From NCBI RefSeq assembly GCF_036785885.1, contig NC_092329.1:3596001-3660000 (forward strand): a stretch of 64,000 bases of DNA, written 5' to 3'. Within the stretch, counting starts at the first letter, position 1. Every line of letters begins with the position of its first letter. Both the position numbers and the translations under genes were made by a program. Shown piece after piece: positions 13,376-52,156 of this stretch. The DNA comes from Coffea arabica. Taxonomy: Eukaryota; Streptophyta; Magnoliopsida; Gentianales; Rubiaceae. The notes beneath the pieces were generated by a model, which saw nothing but the letters and a program-made list of their open reading frames with translations, had not been told where the DNA came from and searched no databases.

Positions 13376-14795
13376 GGATAATCATGCAAATAGTCCCTTA
13401 TATATTGACTTGGTACTTTTTTTGTCTCTTACATATAAAATAAGGCTCCGTTTGGATTACCTGTTTTTGGGGTTGTTTTTCAAAAACAGCACTTTGTATA
13501 TTATGTATAAATATTTACACATTTATGTATACAATATTACATATTATGTATATTATATTATGTATATTATAATATATTATGTATAATATTAATGTATATA
13601 AATATTTATATAATATATAATATATATAATTTTCACTTTGTATATTTCAATTTATATTAATATAATATATATATATATATAATATACATAACTGAAATAT
13701 ACATATGTAGTTGTTTTTGATATAATGTTTGGATATGGTGTTTTTGGAGTTGTTTTAGAAATACACATTTACTGTAGCATTTGGGATGTGAAAAACAGTT
13801 TTTCAAAAACAGCTCCAAAAACAAGGATCCAAACACACCCTATGTTTTTTTTTGGTTGTGTATCACATATTACTTTTTTACCTTTTATGTCCCTTTTATA
13901 TGAAATGATGATTTTTAATCCCTCAAAAAATAAAAAACGCACGATTTTAGTTCCTCGACTCATTTCTACTTATCTTGCCAGAAAAAAAATCACATGCACC
14001 TCATGCCTCAGAAATTTCAATGCTAAAATAAAAAAATCATAAGGAAAAAGAGAAAAATCCCCTCACATATTTTGCTTTTTCGTTTTATTTTCCTAACTAA
14101 GAATATGATAACAGCCATGGTTGCCTTCGGCTACTATGTTAGTGGTGTTGTCGTCGGCCACCACAATTTTCGGTCACAAAATTTCACAAAAAAATCAACA
14201 TTCCATTCAAAAAAATTTTTTTGCATGGAATCTAATTTCGATATTAGTTTTCACAAAAAAAAGAACGTAGGTGAAAAGTTCAACTAGCCTCCACTATTTT
14301 TTCGATTTTTCATCCACTTTTGTTCTTTTTTTGTGTAAAAGCTAATATTAAAATCAGATTATACATGAAAAAGAAAATGAGTGAGAAGTTGAATTTTGGT
14401 GAAATTTTTGTAATCAGAAATGGTAGCAGCCAACGGCGACATTGTCAGCATAACGGCTGAAGTCAACCATGGTGGTTGCTACATTCTTGGCTAGGAAAAT
14501 ATGATGAAGAAGAAAGAAATTTGAAGGACAATTTTCCCTTTTTCTTTTCAATTTTTCATTTTTTTTCCTAAAATTTGTGAGGCATGAGTTACATGTGATT
14601 TTTTTTTATGAGTAGAAATAAGGCGAGGGACTAAAAATATGCATTTTTTATTTGTAAGAAACGAAAAATCAATCTTCTATACGTAAGGGACGTAAAAGGT
14701 ACCAAACTAATATATTAAGAATGAAAAATCATCATTTCAGAAATGAGGGATATAAAAGCTATGGAGCCAATACACACTATTTGTGTGATTTTTCC
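13376..14795. mobile_element. Large foldback element (Mutator-like), interrupted left arm
   Basis: A long imperfect inverted repeat of about 1.4 kb. The left end GGATAATCATGCAAATAGT pairs with the inverse of the right end, GGAAAAATCACACAAATAGT. Further in, AATGATGATTTTT, TAGT(T/C)CCTCG and AAAATCACATG are shared inverted. Flanks aattttgaaa (13366-13375) and aactttgaat (14796-14805) agree at 8 of 10 positions, suggesting a worn target duplication. There is no transposase. The left arm contains a second element at 13441-13842. Confidence 0.65.
13441..13842. mobile_element. GTTTGGAT-type MITE with AT-repeat core, nested
   Basis: The left end TAAGGCTCCGTTTGGATTAC and the inverse of the right end, TAGGGTGTGTTTGGATCC, match. 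The inverted sub-ends CTGTTTTTGGGGTTGTTTTT and AAAAACAGCTCCAAAAAC extend the pairing. The core is an ATATAT-rich low-complexity tract (about 13500-13690). It has no coding capacity. Confidence 0.6.
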
Positions 14796-33611: not shown

Positions 33612-35168
33612 CTATTGAACAACTTTGACGGGGTACCTGTCGATGCAATCCTCCCAGGGACCATTTGGAGCCGGCTTTACATGCCTGAGTGCCTGCCACA
33701 CCGCACTGTTACACTTGAACCCACTCCCAAATGCAATCTGCCAAATTCGTTGGCCCCTGCGTATTCTTCCCTTGGCCTCGGTGTATGCGAGCTCATACCA
33801 AATGGAGCTCGATGAAGTGTTCCCAAACCTGTGGAGAGTCATTCTGGATGCCTCCACGTGTTCTGGTAGCAACTGCAGATTCTTCTCCAGCTCATCAATC
33901 ACAGCCCTTCCCCCAGCATGTATGCAGAAATGATCAAATGCCAGCTTGAAATCAGGGATGTAAGGCTTGATATTCTTCTGGAACAACTTCTTAAGCACCA
34001 AAGTGGCGAAAAACAGAAGCTGCTCGCTGATTGGCAGCACGAGAGGACCCAAAGTGGTAATATTGGTCTTAAGAGCCCCGCCAGCAATAGCCATGAGATC
34101 TTTGGACAAAGTAACCCCCGTCTTCCCAGCATCATCCTGCTCCTGATAAACACAACGGAAGGCCTTATCATCCGAACCCCGATGAGTCCTCACAACATGG
34201 ACGAGCCTATACTTGGCCCTCCTCCTATCTACAGACTTGTTAGACAACAATACCGCGGCACCCCCAACCCGGAACAAACAGTTAGGTATCAACATAGCCT
34301 TCTTATTACCAAAATACCAATTCTGCGTAATATTCTCTGTACTTACTACCACAGCATACGTATTCCTATGCACTTGCAGCAAATCCTTAGCAAGGTCAAC
34401 CGCGATAACTCCAGCACTGCACCCCATCCCACCCAAATTAAAGCTCCTAATATTACCCCTCAACTTGTACTTATTCACAATCATAGCCGAAAGCGAAGGC
34501 GTGGGATTAAACAAGCTGCAGTTGACAACAAGAATTCCTATGTCCTTGGCCTTAACATTAGTATTGGCAAACAAATTATCCACTGCCCCAAACATCACTT
34601 GCTCAGCTTCCTCCCTGGCAGCCTGCATAGACGGGCGGGGAGGAACGAAATGCATAGCTTCAGGGACATAAGTCTCATCCCCCAGCCCAGAACGCTCCAA
34701 GATCTTCCTCTGAAACTGGAGGGATGATTCATCAAAATCCCCAGTAAGCCTGGAATGCTCCATAAAACTCTCAAATGGAGCTTTAAGCTCATCGGGAGCT
34801 CGATAACAAAAATAATCGACCAAGTAAACCGGCCTTGGCCGGGTCATTATATAAACCGTTGACCCGAAAACCAAAATGGCCGAACAAGTGATTACAAAAA
34901 CCAGATTATACTGCAAATGAAGCCATAATTGGCGAATATCATCTGGGTTCATTTGGGAAGCTTCAATTAATATGATAATCATCACGGGAACCAGACAAAG
35001 TGTCAACAAGTGAGAGATCAAGTAGTGGTAGCCCAATTTAACGTACTTCAGATTAACGCTTTGCAAGAAATCGGGTAGTCTCCTGCTTTGCTGGATCTGA
35101 ACTCCCACCCTGGCACTGGTTCTGGCGGTTGGGTTGGTGTCGGCCGGAGCATTGCCGCCTGCTTCCAT
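33612..35168 (-). CDS. KCS4: 3-ketoacyl-CoA synthase (very-long-chain fatty acid elongase)
   Basis: Intronless, 518 residues from the first ATG at 35168 ([12 protein letters not shown]). The frame stays open further up but lacks an earlier ATG. It catalyses condensation of malonyl-CoA with a long-chain acyl-CoA, the rate-limiting first step of the ER fatty-acid elongase that feeds wax, suberin and sphingolipid synthesis. Two membrane helices lie near residues 50-72 and 88-112. The FAE1/CUT1 region follows, with catalytic Cys250 in GGMGCSAGV, His417 in [11 protein letters not shown] and Asn450 in RFGNTSSSS. The N-terminal [20 protein letters not shown] and the ending [12 protein letters not shown] match the Arabidopsis KCS4/KCS9/KCS17 group best as I recall it, hence the symbol. 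All catalytic residues are present and no defect was seen. Confidence 0.95.
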
Positions 35169-35639
35169 TGGCGGTGGGATTTTGACGGCCACTCCAAAGC
35201 TGGGACTACAAGAAGAATCAGTTGACCGAAAAAAAAAAATTATGGAGTGGTGATTTTGATGATTCCCTTTGGGAAAGATAAAGATGGTTATGGGAGGGAG
35301 GGAGGGGAGGGCAGAATGGGCAGAGCAGATGAATCGAGGATATGAATTGCTACAGTAGTACGTCGGATATATCCAAATCCAACAAAGCTTTCTGAGACCA
35401 CGAGAAGAGCTTTGAAGGTGTTCGACTTATTGTAAATCTGAAGGAAAAAAAAAAAAGAGGGCTGCTGCTCTATCCTTCCTGCTTGGTGTAGCTGTGGGCC
35501 TGCCGCTGGATGCCGCTGACTCTGAGATTATACCGGTTCGGGTGTCCGAGTTGAGTTGGGTGGATACAGTAGTGGTCAAGCAAAATCGTTGAAAATATCT
35601 ATCACATTTTCCACAATTTTGATACGGTTTGTCTAATGT
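35169..35639. other. Promoter side of KCS gene
   Basis: Upstream region of the minus-strand KCS gene. It contains a pyrimidine-rich leader on the minus strand (35230-35320) and no other gene. Confidence 0.45.
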
Positions 35640-38974: not shown

Positions 38975-41900
38975 ATGAAGAAAGCTCGACTCCCCAAAGA
39001 TATGGAACCAAATCCCAACTCAAATTTCAAGGTAAATTACAAATACTGCTTTTAAATTCAAGGCAGTGGGATGTAATAGCATTGTTGTTTTGTTTTCTAT
39101 ATTGAAAGTGTTCTGTTTCATTATTGAAGTAGATTTGCTGAAATTTTTGAGATGTTCTTGTTACTTCTTGTCGCAGGTAATCTTGGGATCATCTTCTGTT
39201 GCCCGCAAAAAGATTTTGGCTGACATGGGATATCAATTTACTACAATGGTATGCCGTGCTGCTTAAGGGGTCCCTCCTTTTGTTAGAGTTCTTCAGCTTA
39301 TGTTTGTGTAGATATTTTCAGTTTGATGGACGTGGTGGTTGTTTTTCTAGTCTGCAGATATAGATGAGAAAGCCACACGGAAAGAAAAGCCAGAGGAGTT
39401 GGTCATGGCTCTTGCTGAGGCAAAGGTACATTTTTTGAACTTTTGTTAGAGTTGCAAAAATTTGCTGGGTAAATTCATATGTCAATTTGTTAAGCATTGC
39501 AGATGAGGCCTTTCGTTCTTGAAATGGTAAAACTACTTTGTTTCCTTTTTGAGTGCTTAGTTATGGTGTTTCTGACTCTTTATGAGTGCAAAGAACTTAA
39601 GGTGCACTAAAAACTGTACTTTTTCTGCTTATGGTACTTGACTTGTACATTTCTTTTCCTACCCAACACTAAAAGTCATAGGCTTTTTATTGCTGTCTAA
39701 TATAACTAGACTTTTTTTTTTTCGATTGAGGTGGTCTAAATTGCAATTGCATCTCAGGCAGATGCCATCATATCAAAATTTCAAAATATTCAAAATGAAG
39801 GGAAGGATGTCAAACCCACAATTCTAATTGCTGCAGACACAGTATGTGCGTTATTTTTGTCCGTTTTATTAGTGCTTCCCACTTCGATGATAGTAAGTGC
39901 AGCATGTCCCGTAACCTGTTACCACAATTTGTTCGAGGATACAACTGAGCCTATGTTTGTAGTTTTAGTCTCCGAAATTGCCTTGCTTTGTGAGATCTTT
40001 TTGAGTTAACATCTTTTTCTTTCCTGAATTTTCAACCAGAAGATAGATGCATGGGGCAGAGTCATATTTCTATTGCCGGTTTTTGGCCTGTCTCAATGCA
40101 GTAGGGATCTCATTTGGTTTTTCTATGCTTCATGAACTGCTTTGATAGGATCATATGGTTTAGGAACTTACTTTAGCTAATCAAACTTTTTATTAGGCAG
40201 AAGCCATCATACCAAAGCTCCAAATTGAAGAATACAACATGGATGCTGAGCCAGCGCTTCTAATTACATGTGACCAAGTATATCACATCTTCATGAACTT
40301 AACATTTTATGGTCATTATGTTTCTTGGATATTCTTGTTCTTTCTAATTTCTTTGATGTAAGATTTGTCTTTGTCTTCTTTTTATGCTTTAATTTCTAGT
40401 AAATTACTGTCAGTGTAACTTATCTACTTGCATATATGTGCCATTAATGTCAAAAATGGTTGACTGTGCTTCTTTCTGAGCTTCTTGACTCAAATTTGCT
40501 GATATATCATGGTGAGTTTTAGTTTTATTAATTGGTAATATGGTACACTTAAACTGAGAACTTCTTTTTTTGATGTATTATGGATTCCAAAAAACTTGTA
40601 CATTTGACAACCTGTTGACTTAAAGGTGAAGCTTTTCCTTTAAAGTCTTAGCAGATAGAGGTTGGAAGTTCATAAAGCCCATTAAATGAGCATGGAATGG
40701 CAGTTATGGGCTCTATTTCATAGCAACTAAAAAGCAGTTTGAAACTGGGAAAGTCTCCACTATCCACTGAAACATCACGTTTTCTTGGTCATCTGTAAAA
40801 CTTTACATGATTGAATGATGAGAGAGTTGCTTTCAAAGACTTAAGTAACGAGTTTGGTATCTAAATGGCATGTTCGATGTAGTCAGTCAACTTCTTTACG
40901 TTTCAAACAGGTTAGATTTTTTATCTAACTGAATTTCTATGTCTTATAAATGTTGCTGATACTCCGTATGGTTTGTATCTGAGATTCTAAACGGCAGTGC
41001 ACAGTTCTGTTTTACTGCTTCATCAATTAAAAATAGTAATTTGCTTTCAACTGCAAGTTTATTTTGTTGTGAGCAACATATTAGCGAGAAACAAAAGGCA
41101 GGAGACTTTGATCAGTTTATCAAGATTATCTGTTTGTCCTGTTTCACTACTTATCAAATGGCTTCATGTGTTCATTTTGCCTAGAAATTGTATAATTATT
41201 TTGAAATGTTATTTTTTCGATTATGAATATCTTGTAGAAGATAAATGTGCTGTTTCCGTCAAAGCATGCAAGTCAAAGGTGTCTGAATTTTGTTATTCTT
41301 GTGTGTTCTTTAATCACCTGTATCTTGGCAAATGTGCTAGCAGTAAAGTATGTGGTAACTAGATGTTTGTAGTCCTCATGTTCTTTGTATCCTCGAGCAA
41401 ATATGGATTTCAGGTGGTGGGACATGTTTTTTAGAACATTCAGGATTGTATGATTTCTTTGAGTAGTTTTTTGCTAAATGGAACTTTTGGGTTAGTCTTA
41501 CCACTATATTGAAATGATTTGAAGGTGGTGGTATATGAAGGTAATATCAGGGAAAAGCCATCCAGCAAAGATGAAGCACGCCACTACATTAAAGGTAAAC
41601 CTTCCTAATCTTGCAGATCCTTGCTGTAAATTCTTCAATTGTTTTGGCAGTCTTAAGTGGTAACATTGTAGGTTACTCTGGGGGATGTGCTGCTACTGTA
41701 AGTTCTGTTGTTATTACCAACCTCAAGTCAGGAATCAGAAAAGGAGAATGGGACAAAGTTGAGGTACTATTTTAATCAATTTTAGTTAATAATTCATTTT
41801 GAAGTCCAGTGGCAGATACTTTACATGACTTCAAGAAGATTTATACAGAAACATTTCAAATATACTTGATCTAATATGCATTGCCTTCTTGCAAAACTTA

Positions 41901-43329
41901 TAGAGTACATTACTCACATCAAATGAAGTACATGCATTGGCTTTTTTAGCTGAGCTTTGTCAACCAGATAGACTTGCTACTGCTAGAATGGATTCTTCGT
42001 CAGCTTGTTTCTCTAGAAGAACTAGAATTCCATCACCTGTTAGGCTGTTACTCTTTTGTTGGAGAACACTCAGGACTGAACTTTTAGCTCAATATATGCA
42101 TGTATTTCTATACAAAGCTTTTGGTTTGGAGCTTTTAGTGGTATGGAACTCTGTTATTTAGTGATTTTGAACTTAGTGAAACTGATGGATATTACATTCT
42201 CCTGAGGAGCCACTTTTGGTTGGTGTCAACTTTGATGAGCAGGGTGCCCTCTCTGATTTGTGGGGGTTGCTTACTTGTACTGTTGTTTTTCCAAATCCTT
42301 GTGATTTACCTTTATGAATGTCAACCATGTGATGAATGATGATCTCTTGCAGATACGTTTCCAGGACATACCAGATCAAGTGATAGACAGCTTGGTACAT
42401 GACCTTTATCCAACTTCCTGCATATTTATCTGTTATTTGATGAGGATAATGATGTGCTTTGTTTGTTTTTGAAGATCGAGGAGGGAAATGTGCTGAATGT
42501 TGCTGGGGCACTAATCATCGAACATCCCCTTATATTGCCATACGTAAAAGAAGTGGTTGGTTTCTATTTGTCTGCAAGCTTTCTATGATTTTCATGAATT
42601 TTTAATTAAGATGGCATCAGATTAATTTCTACGAGCTTTTGACAGAAAGATATGGGAGTCAAAGTTGAATACAACCTGAAGGGTTATCTACCCAAATAGT
42701 GTCTTTTTTATTGGAAATTTAAAAAAAAAGGAGAAATATTGTTGGTTTTAATTTTTTTTAGAAGTATAGAATTTGACTCGGTTATCTAAGAAACGTTTAT
42801 TTATTCTTCCTTTCAGCAAATTTCAAATTTCTCCGTCTCCCTTCTTCAACAAAACAACAACTTTTCCCTCTTTCTGCCTTTCTCGGTTTGCCCTATGTGC
42901 CCTTTTCCAACCGAGTTTGGTTCTTATTTTGCCGTTATATTGGCTGATTTGCCATCCAAAGGTGAAATTTTGGATACATTTCATAGGGTGATTATTTTTT
43001 CCCAAATTTTAAAATTGATTTGTCATTGTAGAAGGGGTACGTACAATAAGCAGTGTGTCTTGAGTTTGTGACTCTGACTAGCCATCATGTTCTGAGAAGA
43101 TTAATTTTTGGGTTTGTCATTTGTTGTTTTCTCATCTTTTCTTATGATAAGATTAGTATTATGGTCCTCTTTTTTGTTATCTTGGATCTCTTTTGTTTCT
43201 GACAAAGGAAGTCAATTTCTCTATTAAAAGCGAGTAACAGTTTTTTTTTTTTTTTTTTAAAAAAATTCTGACAAGACAAGCAATATTTGGATAAATAACC
43301 TCCTCAATTGCCAGCTACTGCAACCCTCC

Positions 43330-43377
<48 letters not shown>

Positions 43378-43877
43378 AATGGCAAAGAACTTCTTGTGGT
43401 TGACCAATGGTAATTTGTTAATGTAAACTAGCTCTCAACCTCTCACCATTGTAGCGTCATTGTAAAATTTCTCCCGTAATAGAATTCGTTGTGTTTGTCT
43501 GTAATGGGCCTGCATAGATGATACGGCTTTCTTTCATTGCTTGGAGCATTACCAGAAACCTTTCCAGCTGTGTTTCTAGATGGTATCCTCACTTGTTCAG
43601 ATTCTTCAGACTAGGATCATGTTGTCTTGCTGAGGAAATACCAAAAAAGATTAGGATCCCGTCTATTTAGGAGGTTCAAGTCCTTTGGTAAGGCAAACTC
43701 TGCTTTTGATGTCAATGCCTCCAAAGATCTGCATCTACATCACTTTTCTATCGTTTCTTGGGCACTTGTTTTTGGTTCTTTGCTAATCACCTCTGCTTTT
43801 GGCAGGTGGGGGCGACTGATAGCGTGATGGGACTCCCCAAAGCTCTTACAGAGAGATTGATAAAGGAGGTTCTGTAG
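38975..43877 (+). CDS. Maf-family nucleoside triphosphate pyrophosphatase with alternative exons
   Basis: Exons: 38975-39031, 39177-39248, 39351-39425, then either 39758-39841 or 40197-40277, then 41525-41594, 41672-41763, 42353-42394, 42475-42555 and 43806-43877. All are GT-AG and in frame, giving 214 or 213 residues. Maf proteins hydrolyse non-canonical or surplus nucleotides (dTTP, UTP, m7GTP and others) to monophosphates plus pyrophosphate and are thought to clean the nucleotide pool. Family marks are VILGSSSVARKKIL near the N-terminus (the substrate loop), SADIDEKATRKEKPEELV, the Asp motif AADT or TCDQ followed by VVVYEG, REKPSSKDEAR, YSGG, AGALIIEHPLI, and the C-terminal VMGLPKALTERL. 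The last intron holds a GA repeat and an alternative terminal exon. The start is the first ATG; a second in-frame ATG lies nine codons on. Confidence 0.92.
40197..40277 (+). other. Alternative exon 4b of the Maf gene
   Basis: Bounded by ttattag and gtatat. It is 81 bases, phase 0 at both ends, and codes for AEAIIPKLQ...PALLITCDQ. It is clearly homologous to exon 4a at 39758-39841 (ADAIISKFQ...PTILIAADT, 84 bases, also phase 0). Both fit the same place before VVVYEG. Including both would duplicate an active-site segment, so they are probably mutually exclusive. Confidence 0.8.
42646..42699 (+). other. Possible alternative last exon of the Maf gene
   Basis: After a tttgacag acceptor there are 17 codons (KDMGVKVEYNLKGYLPK) and a stop, in the phase required by the exon ending at 42555. 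Using it would replace the conserved VMGLP-containing C-terminus by an unrelated short tail. It could be a real 3' alternative or a chance frame. Confidence 0.4.
43337..43373 (+). repeat. AG dinucleotide microsatellite
   Basis: About eighteen AG units in the last intron of the Maf gene, about 80 bases after a poly-T/A run (43241-43264). Likely variable in length. Confidence 0.95.
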
Positions 43878-50100: not shown

Positions 50101-51269
50101 TCGTTTAAGCAAAGAAGGGGTTAAATAACAAACGAATGAATATTCCTAGTTTTTCTCAAATTTAAGAGGATCATGCAAGTTGAACTACTTACACATCTCC
50201 GCTTTGCTTAGCACTGAATCTGTTGAGGATAATATCAGAAGGATTATCTGATGGAACTGTCAGATAGGAAGGTGATAAAAAGTGCAGAATTTTCCAGCCC
50301 GGAATGAATAGAGAGAACCTAACATCCCATGCAACAGGGATAGATCCGGGAATTGTCTAGAAGGGACCCAAAAAAAATGAAGGTTGATTTGACAAGCAGA
50401 TACTGTACGAAGATTCAGCAGGGCCTCCTTCAAGGGTAAGATAAGGATTCTTGCCTCTTTATGCTATCTGTGATACTGAGATTCATCACATAAAACAAGG
50501 AGGTAAATAGAAATTTTCTACCCACCTTTTATTTCTCAGCTGAAATACTTCGAATGCGGAAAGGCAGTTCTGAAATGTCCTTATACTATGACGTAGCCTA
50601 TGAACCATATCCAAGCAAAATATTTCTGCGATCAGGTGATTTTAAGGTTGCTTGCAGAGATAAATAATCTATAGCTCACAAAAAGAGTGAATAAGAGTGG
50701 CATTGCCATTTTTATCTTCCTGCAGCTATCACAGAAGAGTTTGGTTAATGCAGAAAGAAGACAATAAATTCATTATGTTCAGAAAAGCACGTGGATGGCT
50801 TTCTCTTTTCAGTGGAAGACCTGCGAATTTGTGGAAGTCTTTCATGTCAGTTCAGAGTTCAAAAGTTTGTCCCCTTGCCGAAGTAGAAGGTCAAATTGCT
50901 GCTTTGGCAATCTACTTTTGGAACCATTTGAAATCAGCTGATCGTCAGGATAAAAGCCTAACAGACTAGTGTTAAGGTCTTGTTAAACTGGCTACCAATG
51001 TAGTCACATATGAAGCTATTTACACATACTTTCCATCACTAGAACGAGACTTCAGCATTTAGGTCCCAAACTAAACCCTGCATGCAGCTCCTTATTTTCC
51101 TAGATTGCCTTGGACTGATCAACTGATCATAATGCTGAACAATATGAACAACCCTACTAGCATCGAGTCTAGGGGAGCAAATTAGGAGAGACAAAGCTAA
51201 TCTCATTAAAACTGCTCATTTTATTTTCAAAGTGGAAGTCAATTGTAGACGAATATTAAATAGTTTTAA
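47179..51269. other. Spacer without recognisable genes
   Basis: About 4 kb of moderately AT-rich DNA. Open stretches at 47219-47626 and 50697-50969 show no known domain. It could include the promoter of RADIALIS-like gene 2 and non-coding transcripts. Nothing firm can be said. Confidence 0.45.
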
Positions 51270-51742
51270 GGGCAAATTCCACTTTACCCCCCTGTGGTTT
51301 AGCGTTTTTTCACATAACCCCCCTATGGTTTCAAAAGCTATACATAACCCCCTTATGGTTTGGATTAAAGTGTCAAAGTAACGGAAATAGTCACTCGTAA
51401 CGGTGTCACCTAAAATGTCAAAAATACGCTTATGTAAGGTTGAAATTTATGTATTAACCAAGGGGGGTTATGTGTATGTTTTGAAAATCATAAGGGGGTT
51501 ATATGGTAAAATATTAAACCATAGGGGGGTTATATGGTAAAATATAAAAATCATAGGGGGTTAATGTGTCATGTATTTATAAGGGTAATTTCGACATTTT
51601 TAGAAGTTCCGTTACGAGTGACTATTTCCGTTACTTTGACACTTTAATCCAAACCATGAGGGGGTTATGTATAGCTTTTGAAACCATAGGGGGGTTATGT
51701 AAAAAAAGGGTAAACCACAGGGGGGTAAAATGTAATTTACCC
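51270..51742. mobile_element. Mutator-like foldback MITE
   Basis: Near-perfect inverted arms of about 130 bases. The left arm (from GGGCAAATTCCACTTTACCC to AGTCACTCGTAACGG) is matched inverted by the right arm (from CCGTTACGAGTGACTATTTC to ...AATTTACCC). The identical 9-base duplication TAGTTTTAA flanks it (51261-51269, 51743-51751). Repeated C6/G6-T-A motifs fill the arms. It is 473 bases with no coding capacity. High arm identity suggests it is rather young. Confidence 0.9.
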
Positions 51743-52156
51743 TAGTTTTAAAGAGAAAAAAAGATGGTAATTTCCTAAAAAGTGCTCATGTTGTTCTCGA
51801 ACTGGAACCATAACTGAGAATATTTATATATATATATATAATTAGCTTTATATAATATACATATAATGATCAAGCCCATTATTCTGTAACATTTGCTTTT
51901 TCATAAGAGAAAGGATGAAGTCTTGGAAATAACAGAACCTGCCTGATAAAAGGGAACCATGCTTCTTCGAAAACCCCGAGAACAATGGACAGAAGCCCAT
52001 GACAAGCGTAAGCCCAGCATCCTACTGAAAACATATTTTACTTTTTCTAAAAACGCTCTGTCCAAATCCATTTGGTTTTTTCAGTTTCTTTCTTGTACAC
52101 CATATAACAAAATACGTTTGGGCCCTCTTACCCGATCCCGAACGATTGGTTTCAAG

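Follow-up and report, generated by a model that had tools for sequence, protein, structure and literature searches.

A tandemly duplicated active-site exon in a putative Maf pyrophosphatase gene of Coffea arabica

The Maf gene and its two fourth exons

The window analysed here, a stretch of 64,000 nucleotides from an assembly of 1.198 Gb, carries on its plus strand a Maf (PF02545) gene of ten exons, counting two versions of the fourth, with AG and GT at all intron borders (Table 1). To judge by its sequence, exon 4 of the gene has been tandemly duplicated, and the putative product is a nucleoside triphosphate pyrophosphatase of the Maf type. Translation is more likely to begin at 39002 than at an alternative longer start at 38975, because a second copy of the gene, on C19, has AGG in place of the ATG at 38975.

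The sequence-only reading had placed two homologous phase-0 exons, of 84 and 81 nt, in tandem ahead of the exon that begins VVVYEG, and this is the arrangement we find; the splice sites of both are intact, AG standing before and GT after each, and from either one the catalytic Asp comes to lie upstream of VVVYEG. The two exons, 4a and 4b, are identical at 52 of 81 nucleotides and 12 of 27 amino acids. Being adjacent, homologous, alike in phase, similar in length and furnished with splice sites on both, they have the features by which tandem-duplicated mutually exclusive exons are recognized. The single-exon isoforms, of 205 (4a) and 204 (4b) residues, score 144.7 and 145.9 bits against PF02545 (curated cut-off 27), and both contain all six residues of the S-R-E-K-D-K signature. 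The Asp comes from exon 4, and therefore a transcript without 4a and 4b would specify a protein lacking its catalytic base.

Table 1. Coding exons of the Maf gene and arms of the inverted repeat around exon 4b (window coordinates)
Feature	Position	Strand	Remarks
Exon 1, coding part	39002..39031	+	MEPNPNSNFK; ATG 39002 kept in the C19 copy
Exon 2	39177..39248	+	marker residue 1 (Ala); signature Ser and Arg
Exon 3	39351..39425	+	signature Glu and Lys
Exon 4a, alternative, T type	39758..39841	+	84 nt; ADAIISKFQNIQNEGKDVKPTILIAADT; phase 0; ends ILIAADT
Inverted repeat, arm 1	39901..39950	+	in the 4a-4b intron
Exon 4b, alternative, Q type	40197..40277	+	81 nt; AEAIIPKLQIEEYNMDAEPALLITCDQ; phase 0; ends LLITCDQ
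Inverted repeat, arm 2	41380..41428	+	between 4b and exon 5, in the intron; complementary to arm 1, with 4b in the loop
Exon 5	41525..41594	+	begins VVVYEG; signature Lys
Exon 6	41672..41763	+	
Exon 7	42353..42394	+	
Exon 8	42475..42555	+	marker residue 3 (Glu, VAGALIIEHPL)
Exon 9	43806..43877	+	runs to the stop codon

A search of the genome with the Pfam profile at E 0.001 gave no match, because the exons are short. A protein search of the same genome (29 matches from 35 candidates, among them a weak one on C22 at E 8.3) gave matches to individual exons at four loci, and revealed a near-identical copy of the gene on C19 and a diverged paralogue pair on C13 and C14. In the C19 copy both 4a and 4b are present with AG and GT intact; 4a is identical at 84 of 84 positions, 4b at 80 of 81 with its single change silent, and exons 3, 8 and 9 each differ by one amino acid. 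The C13 and C14 genes have a single exon 4 each, of the T type and ending LLITADT. When 10 kb at every further Maf locus was searched with the exons one by one, no third copy of exon 4 appeared at C19. The Maf loci thus form two near-identical pairs with neighbouring contig numbers (C19/C20 and C13/C14), resembling what a recent allotetraploid would hold. A retrocopy that might have preserved a spliced form was sought as well, and the protein search found no intronless Maf copy in the genome. The acceptor before exon 5 is the rare GAG in the C13/C14 paralogue and in the C19 copy, and AAG in the window. The introns on either side of 4a (39426-39757 and 39842-40196) differ between the gene copies at 8 of 684 positions, compared with 87 of 3447 in the other introns (Fisher p 0.035, for a grouping picked after the numbers had been seen).

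A bacterial promoter scan of 43200-43400 gave nothing and is irrelevant to the exon question. Elsewhere in the window an intact open reading frame of 526 codons occupies 33612-35192 of the minus strand; it resembles a 3-ketoacyl-CoA synthase and is a candidate gene for such an enzyme. Long inverted repeats with short loops, made of 165-nt arms that are 90% complementary and of four pairs of 46-82-nt arms, lie at 51269-51743 and 13867-14761 and are perhaps miniature transposon hairpins.

Splicing of the exon pair and an inverted repeat around 4b

Exons 4a and 4b are 355 nt apart, each is a multiple of three in length, and their sites are ordinary GT-AG, so that neither frame nor distance bars the inclusion of both. 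Judged by eye against the consensus, their donors do not look U12-type. The donors are weak, scoring 0.9 and 1.7 as against 4.4-9.3 for 13 other introns, and we reject this as a sign of regulation, since the single exon of the paralogue has the same A at position -1. Intron similarity left over from the exon duplication amounts only to matches of 10-14 nt.

An inverted repeat of about 50 nt encloses 4b (Table 1), with a calculated duplex energy of -59.3 kcal/mol and a loop of 1.4 kb. Its ungapped complementarity of 62, set against 30.8 +/- 3.5 in dinucleotide shuffles, was reached by none of 300, and the minimum-energy fold of 39351-41594 holds 42 arm-arm pairs. In a cruder duplex test, pairing between the 4a-4b intron and the final 400 nt of the intron after it was equalled by 1 of 60 shuffles, and the other four pairs by 6, 28, 37 and 20 of 60. 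The corresponding duplex in the C19 copy has -60.1 kcal/mol despite four substitutions, a retention of stability that is only mildly unusual (103 of 2000 and 192 of 2000); with 4 changes in 122 nt between the gene copies, the arms are no better conserved than introns. The stretches that hold the arms match solely the two gene copies in a DNA search that skips simple repeats and very common words and does not prove single-copy status. Among control placements, the score of the repeat was reached by 4 of 186 elsewhere in the window and by 0 of 28 and 2 of 28 in the two paralogues (L024 and L025). The repeats listed in the four matching window regions have loops below 800 nt, as against 1.4 kb with an exon inside at 4b, and the last intron of the gene itself reaches a complementarity of 61, from A and T tracts. 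For the other two intron pairs, those of intron 3, pairing is no better than in shuffles (196 of 300 and 85 of 300). In the C13 paralogue the introns that flank exon 4 give no pairing signal either (91 of 100 shuffles). A competing stem that would hide 4a was not found, either in the intron pairing against shuffles or in the minimum-energy fold.

We suggest that this inverted repeat probably steers splicing: when paired, it would loop out 4b and leave no more than about 155 nt between the donor of 4a and the acceptor of exon 5; with the stem open, 4b would become usable. One copy of exon 4 would usually be included at a time, giving two full-length enzymes. The stem would explain the skipping of 4b and hence transcripts with 4a alone; by itself it does not explain the use of 4b without 4a.

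The main rival has 4a included constitutively, with 4b added to it as an optional cassette. The products would then be 4a alone and a 4a-4b protein with an insertion of 27 residues, in which the Asp-Gln of 4b, next to VVVYEG, makes the active site and 4a is left as a surplus loop and strand. The uninterrupted frame, the 355-nt intron between the exons and their ordinary splice sites all permit this, and the sole strong stem loops out 4b alone. Scores against a plant-free profile (130 non-plant Maf sequences, 127 of them prokaryotic and three from solved structures) do little to separate the products, being 167.4 for the 4a isoform, 167.1 for the 4b isoform and 165.2 for the double form; the near equality of the last is a counterpoint to exclusive use. 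Omitting both copies, and with them the Asp, brings the score from 167 down to 134.8. With 12 of 14 NCBIfam Maf models the double product gives two matched stretches and the single isoforms one each, which recalls the rice protein NAL22, described in the excerpted text of PMC9962836 as having 322 amino acids, "two maf domains" and a predicted structure without an enzyme pocket. The hint is a loose one, given that Pfam matches each of the three forms in one stretch, the double product at 144.1. It nevertheless suggests that a gene model joining 4a to 4b could be misread as "two Maf domains".

Structure speaks for a single copy. The model of a bacterial relative, L027, has a pLDDT of 95.6 and as its best solved match by E-value the T. 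brucei protein 2amh (TM 0.90); in secondary structure transferred to the plant protein from this model by alignment, exon 4 maps to a helix end, a loop and, of a twelve-residue strand (65-76 in the L027 model), the initial eight residues, the remainder being supplied by exon 5. Because exon 4 ends inside a strand that exon 5 continues, inclusion of one copy is, on this model, structurally simple, and inclusion of both amounts to the insertion of a spare strand and helix. The double product would have to place a hydrophobic strand outside the sheet, as only the last copy can run into VVVYEG, and the cassette reading leaves the preserved Asp-Thr strand of 4a without a reason. We consider the cassette possible and rather unlikely.

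Retention of both exons

The sequence-only reading took the intactness of both exons as a sign of selection on each. Selection finds support, although by another route, for intactness is weak evidence: 28% of neutral copies keep their reading frame and splice sites at 0.2 substitutions per site, and 7% do so at 0.5, and we accordingly rejected it as proof. The profile is more telling. Simulated copies of 4a matched the profile score of 4b in 0 of 3000 cases at the observed 29 differences and in 42 of 3000 at 15; starting from the paralogue exon, the 4b score was reached by 0 of 3000 at 41 substitutions and 4 of 3000 at 20, and the 4a score by none at 35 substitutions and one at 17, again of 3000 each. 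In these simulations differences were placed at random with no stop allowed, and the starting points were living exons, not the true ancestor. We conclude that 4a and 4b have both been retained as working active-site exons, as far as sequence can predict.

The exons have nonetheless changed quickly. Between 4a and 4b, dN is 0.43 and dS 0.72, a dN/dS of about 0.6 on 27 codons, and the shared exons of the two paralogues have a value well below this, 0.13. Exon 4 evolves fast, 4b most of all: measured against the paralogue, 4b has a dN of 0.61, 4a one of 0.37 and the shared exons one of 0.22. This rate is consistent with 4b as a duplicate in decay or out of use, the functional enzyme being made with 4a only, as in the paralogue. 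The modest proportion of neutral copies that stay intact, and the 42 simulated copies that attain the 4b score at 15 substitutions, would fit such a duplicate as well. Three observations stand against it: the profile tests at full divergence and from the paralogue exon; the silence of the sole change in 4b between the gene copies; and the presence in 4b alone, at three places where 4a and the paralogue have another, of the residue commonest in the clade to which these proteins belong (Gln in 14, Ala in 11 and Pro in 7 of its 17 non-plant rows). We regard a decaying 4b as improbable.

How old the duplication is can be read in two ways. By silent sites 4a and 4b are the younger pair, with a dS of 0.72 against 1.66 for the divergence between the plant's two Maf genes; the Ser, the Thr and the length common to 4a and the paralogue suggest the opposite order. 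A tree test on the exon alone did not separate the three possible orders (AU 0.79, 0.29 and 0.23).

Marker residues, relatives and possible function

Maf subfamilies are told apart by triplets of marker residues, R-T-Q in YhdE and W-Q-E in YceF; the middle one, Thr71 in YhdE and Gln70 in YceF, sits at the floor of the base pocket (PMC3899018, as excerpted). Exon choice in the plant gene alters this middle marker only, giving A-T-E with 4a and A-Q-E with 4b, and the outer two, the Ala of exon 2 and the Glu of exon 8, are fixed in shared exons and hence the same in every product. The R-T-Q of YhdE occurs in neither isoform, nor does the W (aromatic)-Q-E of YceF: 4b has the Q and the E but Ala at marker 1, and 4a is without the Q too. 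The motifs that the sequence-only reading gave for the E. coli proteins agree with our own alignment, in which YceF reads GSDQ and the YhdE-type protein aligned, B. subtilis Maf, reads GADT.

Among 119 prokaryotic Mafs with the full signature, markers 2 and 3 are paired as Thr-Gln in 68, Gln-Glu in 29, Thr-Glu in 2, Gln-Gln in none and otherwise in 20, so that the two common pairs together take up 97 of the 119; the rows are related by descent, and the counts describe pairing and not natural frequency. They come from 141 loci, 140 with a Maf, of which 127 were distinct once identical or contained rows had been removed; eight more were dropped from the count, six with one signature residue changed and two incomplete. 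The loci had been drawn from motif-pattern matches resembling the plant protein, the best-scoring of each family search (up to 30) and 20 low-scoring ones picked by hand. Judged by these counts, 4b makes the usual Gln-Glu pair and 4a the rare mixed pair Thr-Glu, which the C13/C14 paralogue has also.

The closest prokaryotic relatives of the plant proteins that we found are ten loci (L026-L035), 38-46% identical over almost the full length, nine of which bear Patescibacterial candidate names. These ten were found with two motif patterns built from the plant and trypanosome proteins, a scan that favours such sequences; the clade members L073, L075, L078, L079 and L114 came from general family-model searches. 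In a tree of 133 rows, drawn with a midpoint root, these bacterial proteins group with those of the plant and with trypanosome Maf1 in a clade of 20 rows with support of 100/100, which also includes L036 and L114 from a proteobacterial search group. This third, mostly Patescibacterial clade is separate from the YceF and YhdE types, and the plant protein does not branch with E. coli YceF. Its residues at marker 1 are varied (L026-L036, L073, L075, L078, L079, L114). At the exon 4 position its 17 non-plant rows have Gln in 14 and Thr, Leu and Gly in one each, so Gln is probably ancestral there, and 4b probably keeps it or has regained it. Two scans of viral contigs yielded no viral Maf relatives. 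A rice Maf protein, too, fits neither bacterial subfamily in the excerpted account of PMC9962836.

That exon choice might convert a YhdE-like enzyme acting on dTTP and UTP into a YceF-like one acting on m7GTP was proposed in the sequence-only reading. The part of it that holds is that interchangeable exons carry the catalytic Asp together with the T or Q marker, one of the three subfamily markers and the one at the pocket floor; and with dTTP the R12A mutant of YhdE retains roughly half of the wild-type kcat/KM (1.3e5 against 2.9e5), which makes an Arg at marker 1 non-essential (PMC3899018, as excerpted). Against this, one marker of three changes, the Glu of marker 3 is fixed in exon 8, the resulting Thr-Glu pair is rare (2 of 119), and both isoforms stand outside both subfamily clades; a complete switch by exon choice is unlikely, in our estimate highly so. 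Nor need the middle residue alone decide the substrate, as YceF Q70A has a raised KM and a nearly unchanged kcat/KM (3.7e4 to 2.9e4; PMC3899018, Table 1).

The scheme that we consider on balance probable is that exon 4 was duplicated in tandem, that splicing usually takes in one copy under the guidance of the stem, and that the two resulting enzymes differ at the floor of the pocket. They would differ in the loop and strand that bear the catalytic Asp and the pocket-floor residue, Thr with 4a and Gln with 4b. The 4b form would have the Gln-Glu pair of the m7GTP-type enzymes (YceF, trypanosome Maf1); in the 4a form, because its Thr-Glu pair is mixed as in the second Maf gene, the base preference has probably been shifted and not made that of YhdE. 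What the DNA itself displays is the anatomy of the exons, their conservation in the second gene copy, their profile fit, the pairing of residues and the inverted repeat as a sequence. From these the alternative use of two selected active-site exons appears likely, and both strict exclusivity and a change of substrate between the isoforms plausible.

A more sweeping version holds that one gene provides two nucleotide house-cleaning enzymes, one with the Gln-Glu pair, which would clear m7GTP, and one with Thr-Glu and a new range of bases, the choice being set by a meltable stem that loops out the Gln exon. We think this distinctly doubtful; if it were true, the filtering of nucleotides could vary with conditions, temperature for example. 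In any event, a pair of exons that changes the pocket-floor residue and leaves the rest constant is a natural experiment on the role of that residue. To our knowledge, it is unusual in plants for alternative splicing to be aimed at a catalytic site.

The narrow leaves of rice nal22 Maf mutants indicate that Maf proteins are important for growth in plants (PMC9962836, as excerpted). Our searches of the open-access literature found no report of the substrates of any plant Maf, and this exon pair is not described in the excerpts of the matches listed there. Among 79 genes found to be differentially spliced in rapeseed is the orthologue of AT5G66550, which is a Maf-like protein; the table, in the excerpt, gives no type of event (PMC7397149).

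Several known systems invite comparison. E. coli YceF (m7GTP) and B. subtilis Maf (YhdE type, dTTP/UTP) belong to the same family and have the same six signature residues, but their W-Q-E and R-T-Q differ from the A-Q-E and A-T-E of the plant protein, which branches apart from both. T. brucei Maf1 (PDB 2amh), which is YceF-like, is the best match of isoform 4b among solved structures (1.4e-24), lies on the plant branch (98/100) and agrees with 4b at marker 2 (Gln) and marker 3 (Glu); its marker 1 is Phe, as against Ala in the plant, and its branch is the longest in the tree, which leaves its exact place unsure. Most of the Patescibacterial Mafs (L026-L035) have a motif like ITxDQ, as in 4b, although each is a single uninterrupted gene and the loop is about 8-9 residues shorter than in the plant.

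For the exon arrangement, the parallels come from other families. In genes of the Dscam/srp type tandem exon duplication is combined with base pairing within introns, so that a single exon is exposed at any one time (PMC6071210, as excerpted); the plant Maf gene, unlike these, has a single stem around 4b and no competing partner in intron 3. Arabidopsis FLM/MAF1 (MADS AFFECTING FLOWERING 1) is, despite its name, an unrelated transcription factor without a catalytic site, and its second exon, of which remnants occur in MAF2 and MAF3 alone, has been judged recent; yet there too an in-frame pair of alternative exons swaps one segment of the protein, as it would here (PMC3266260, as excerpted).
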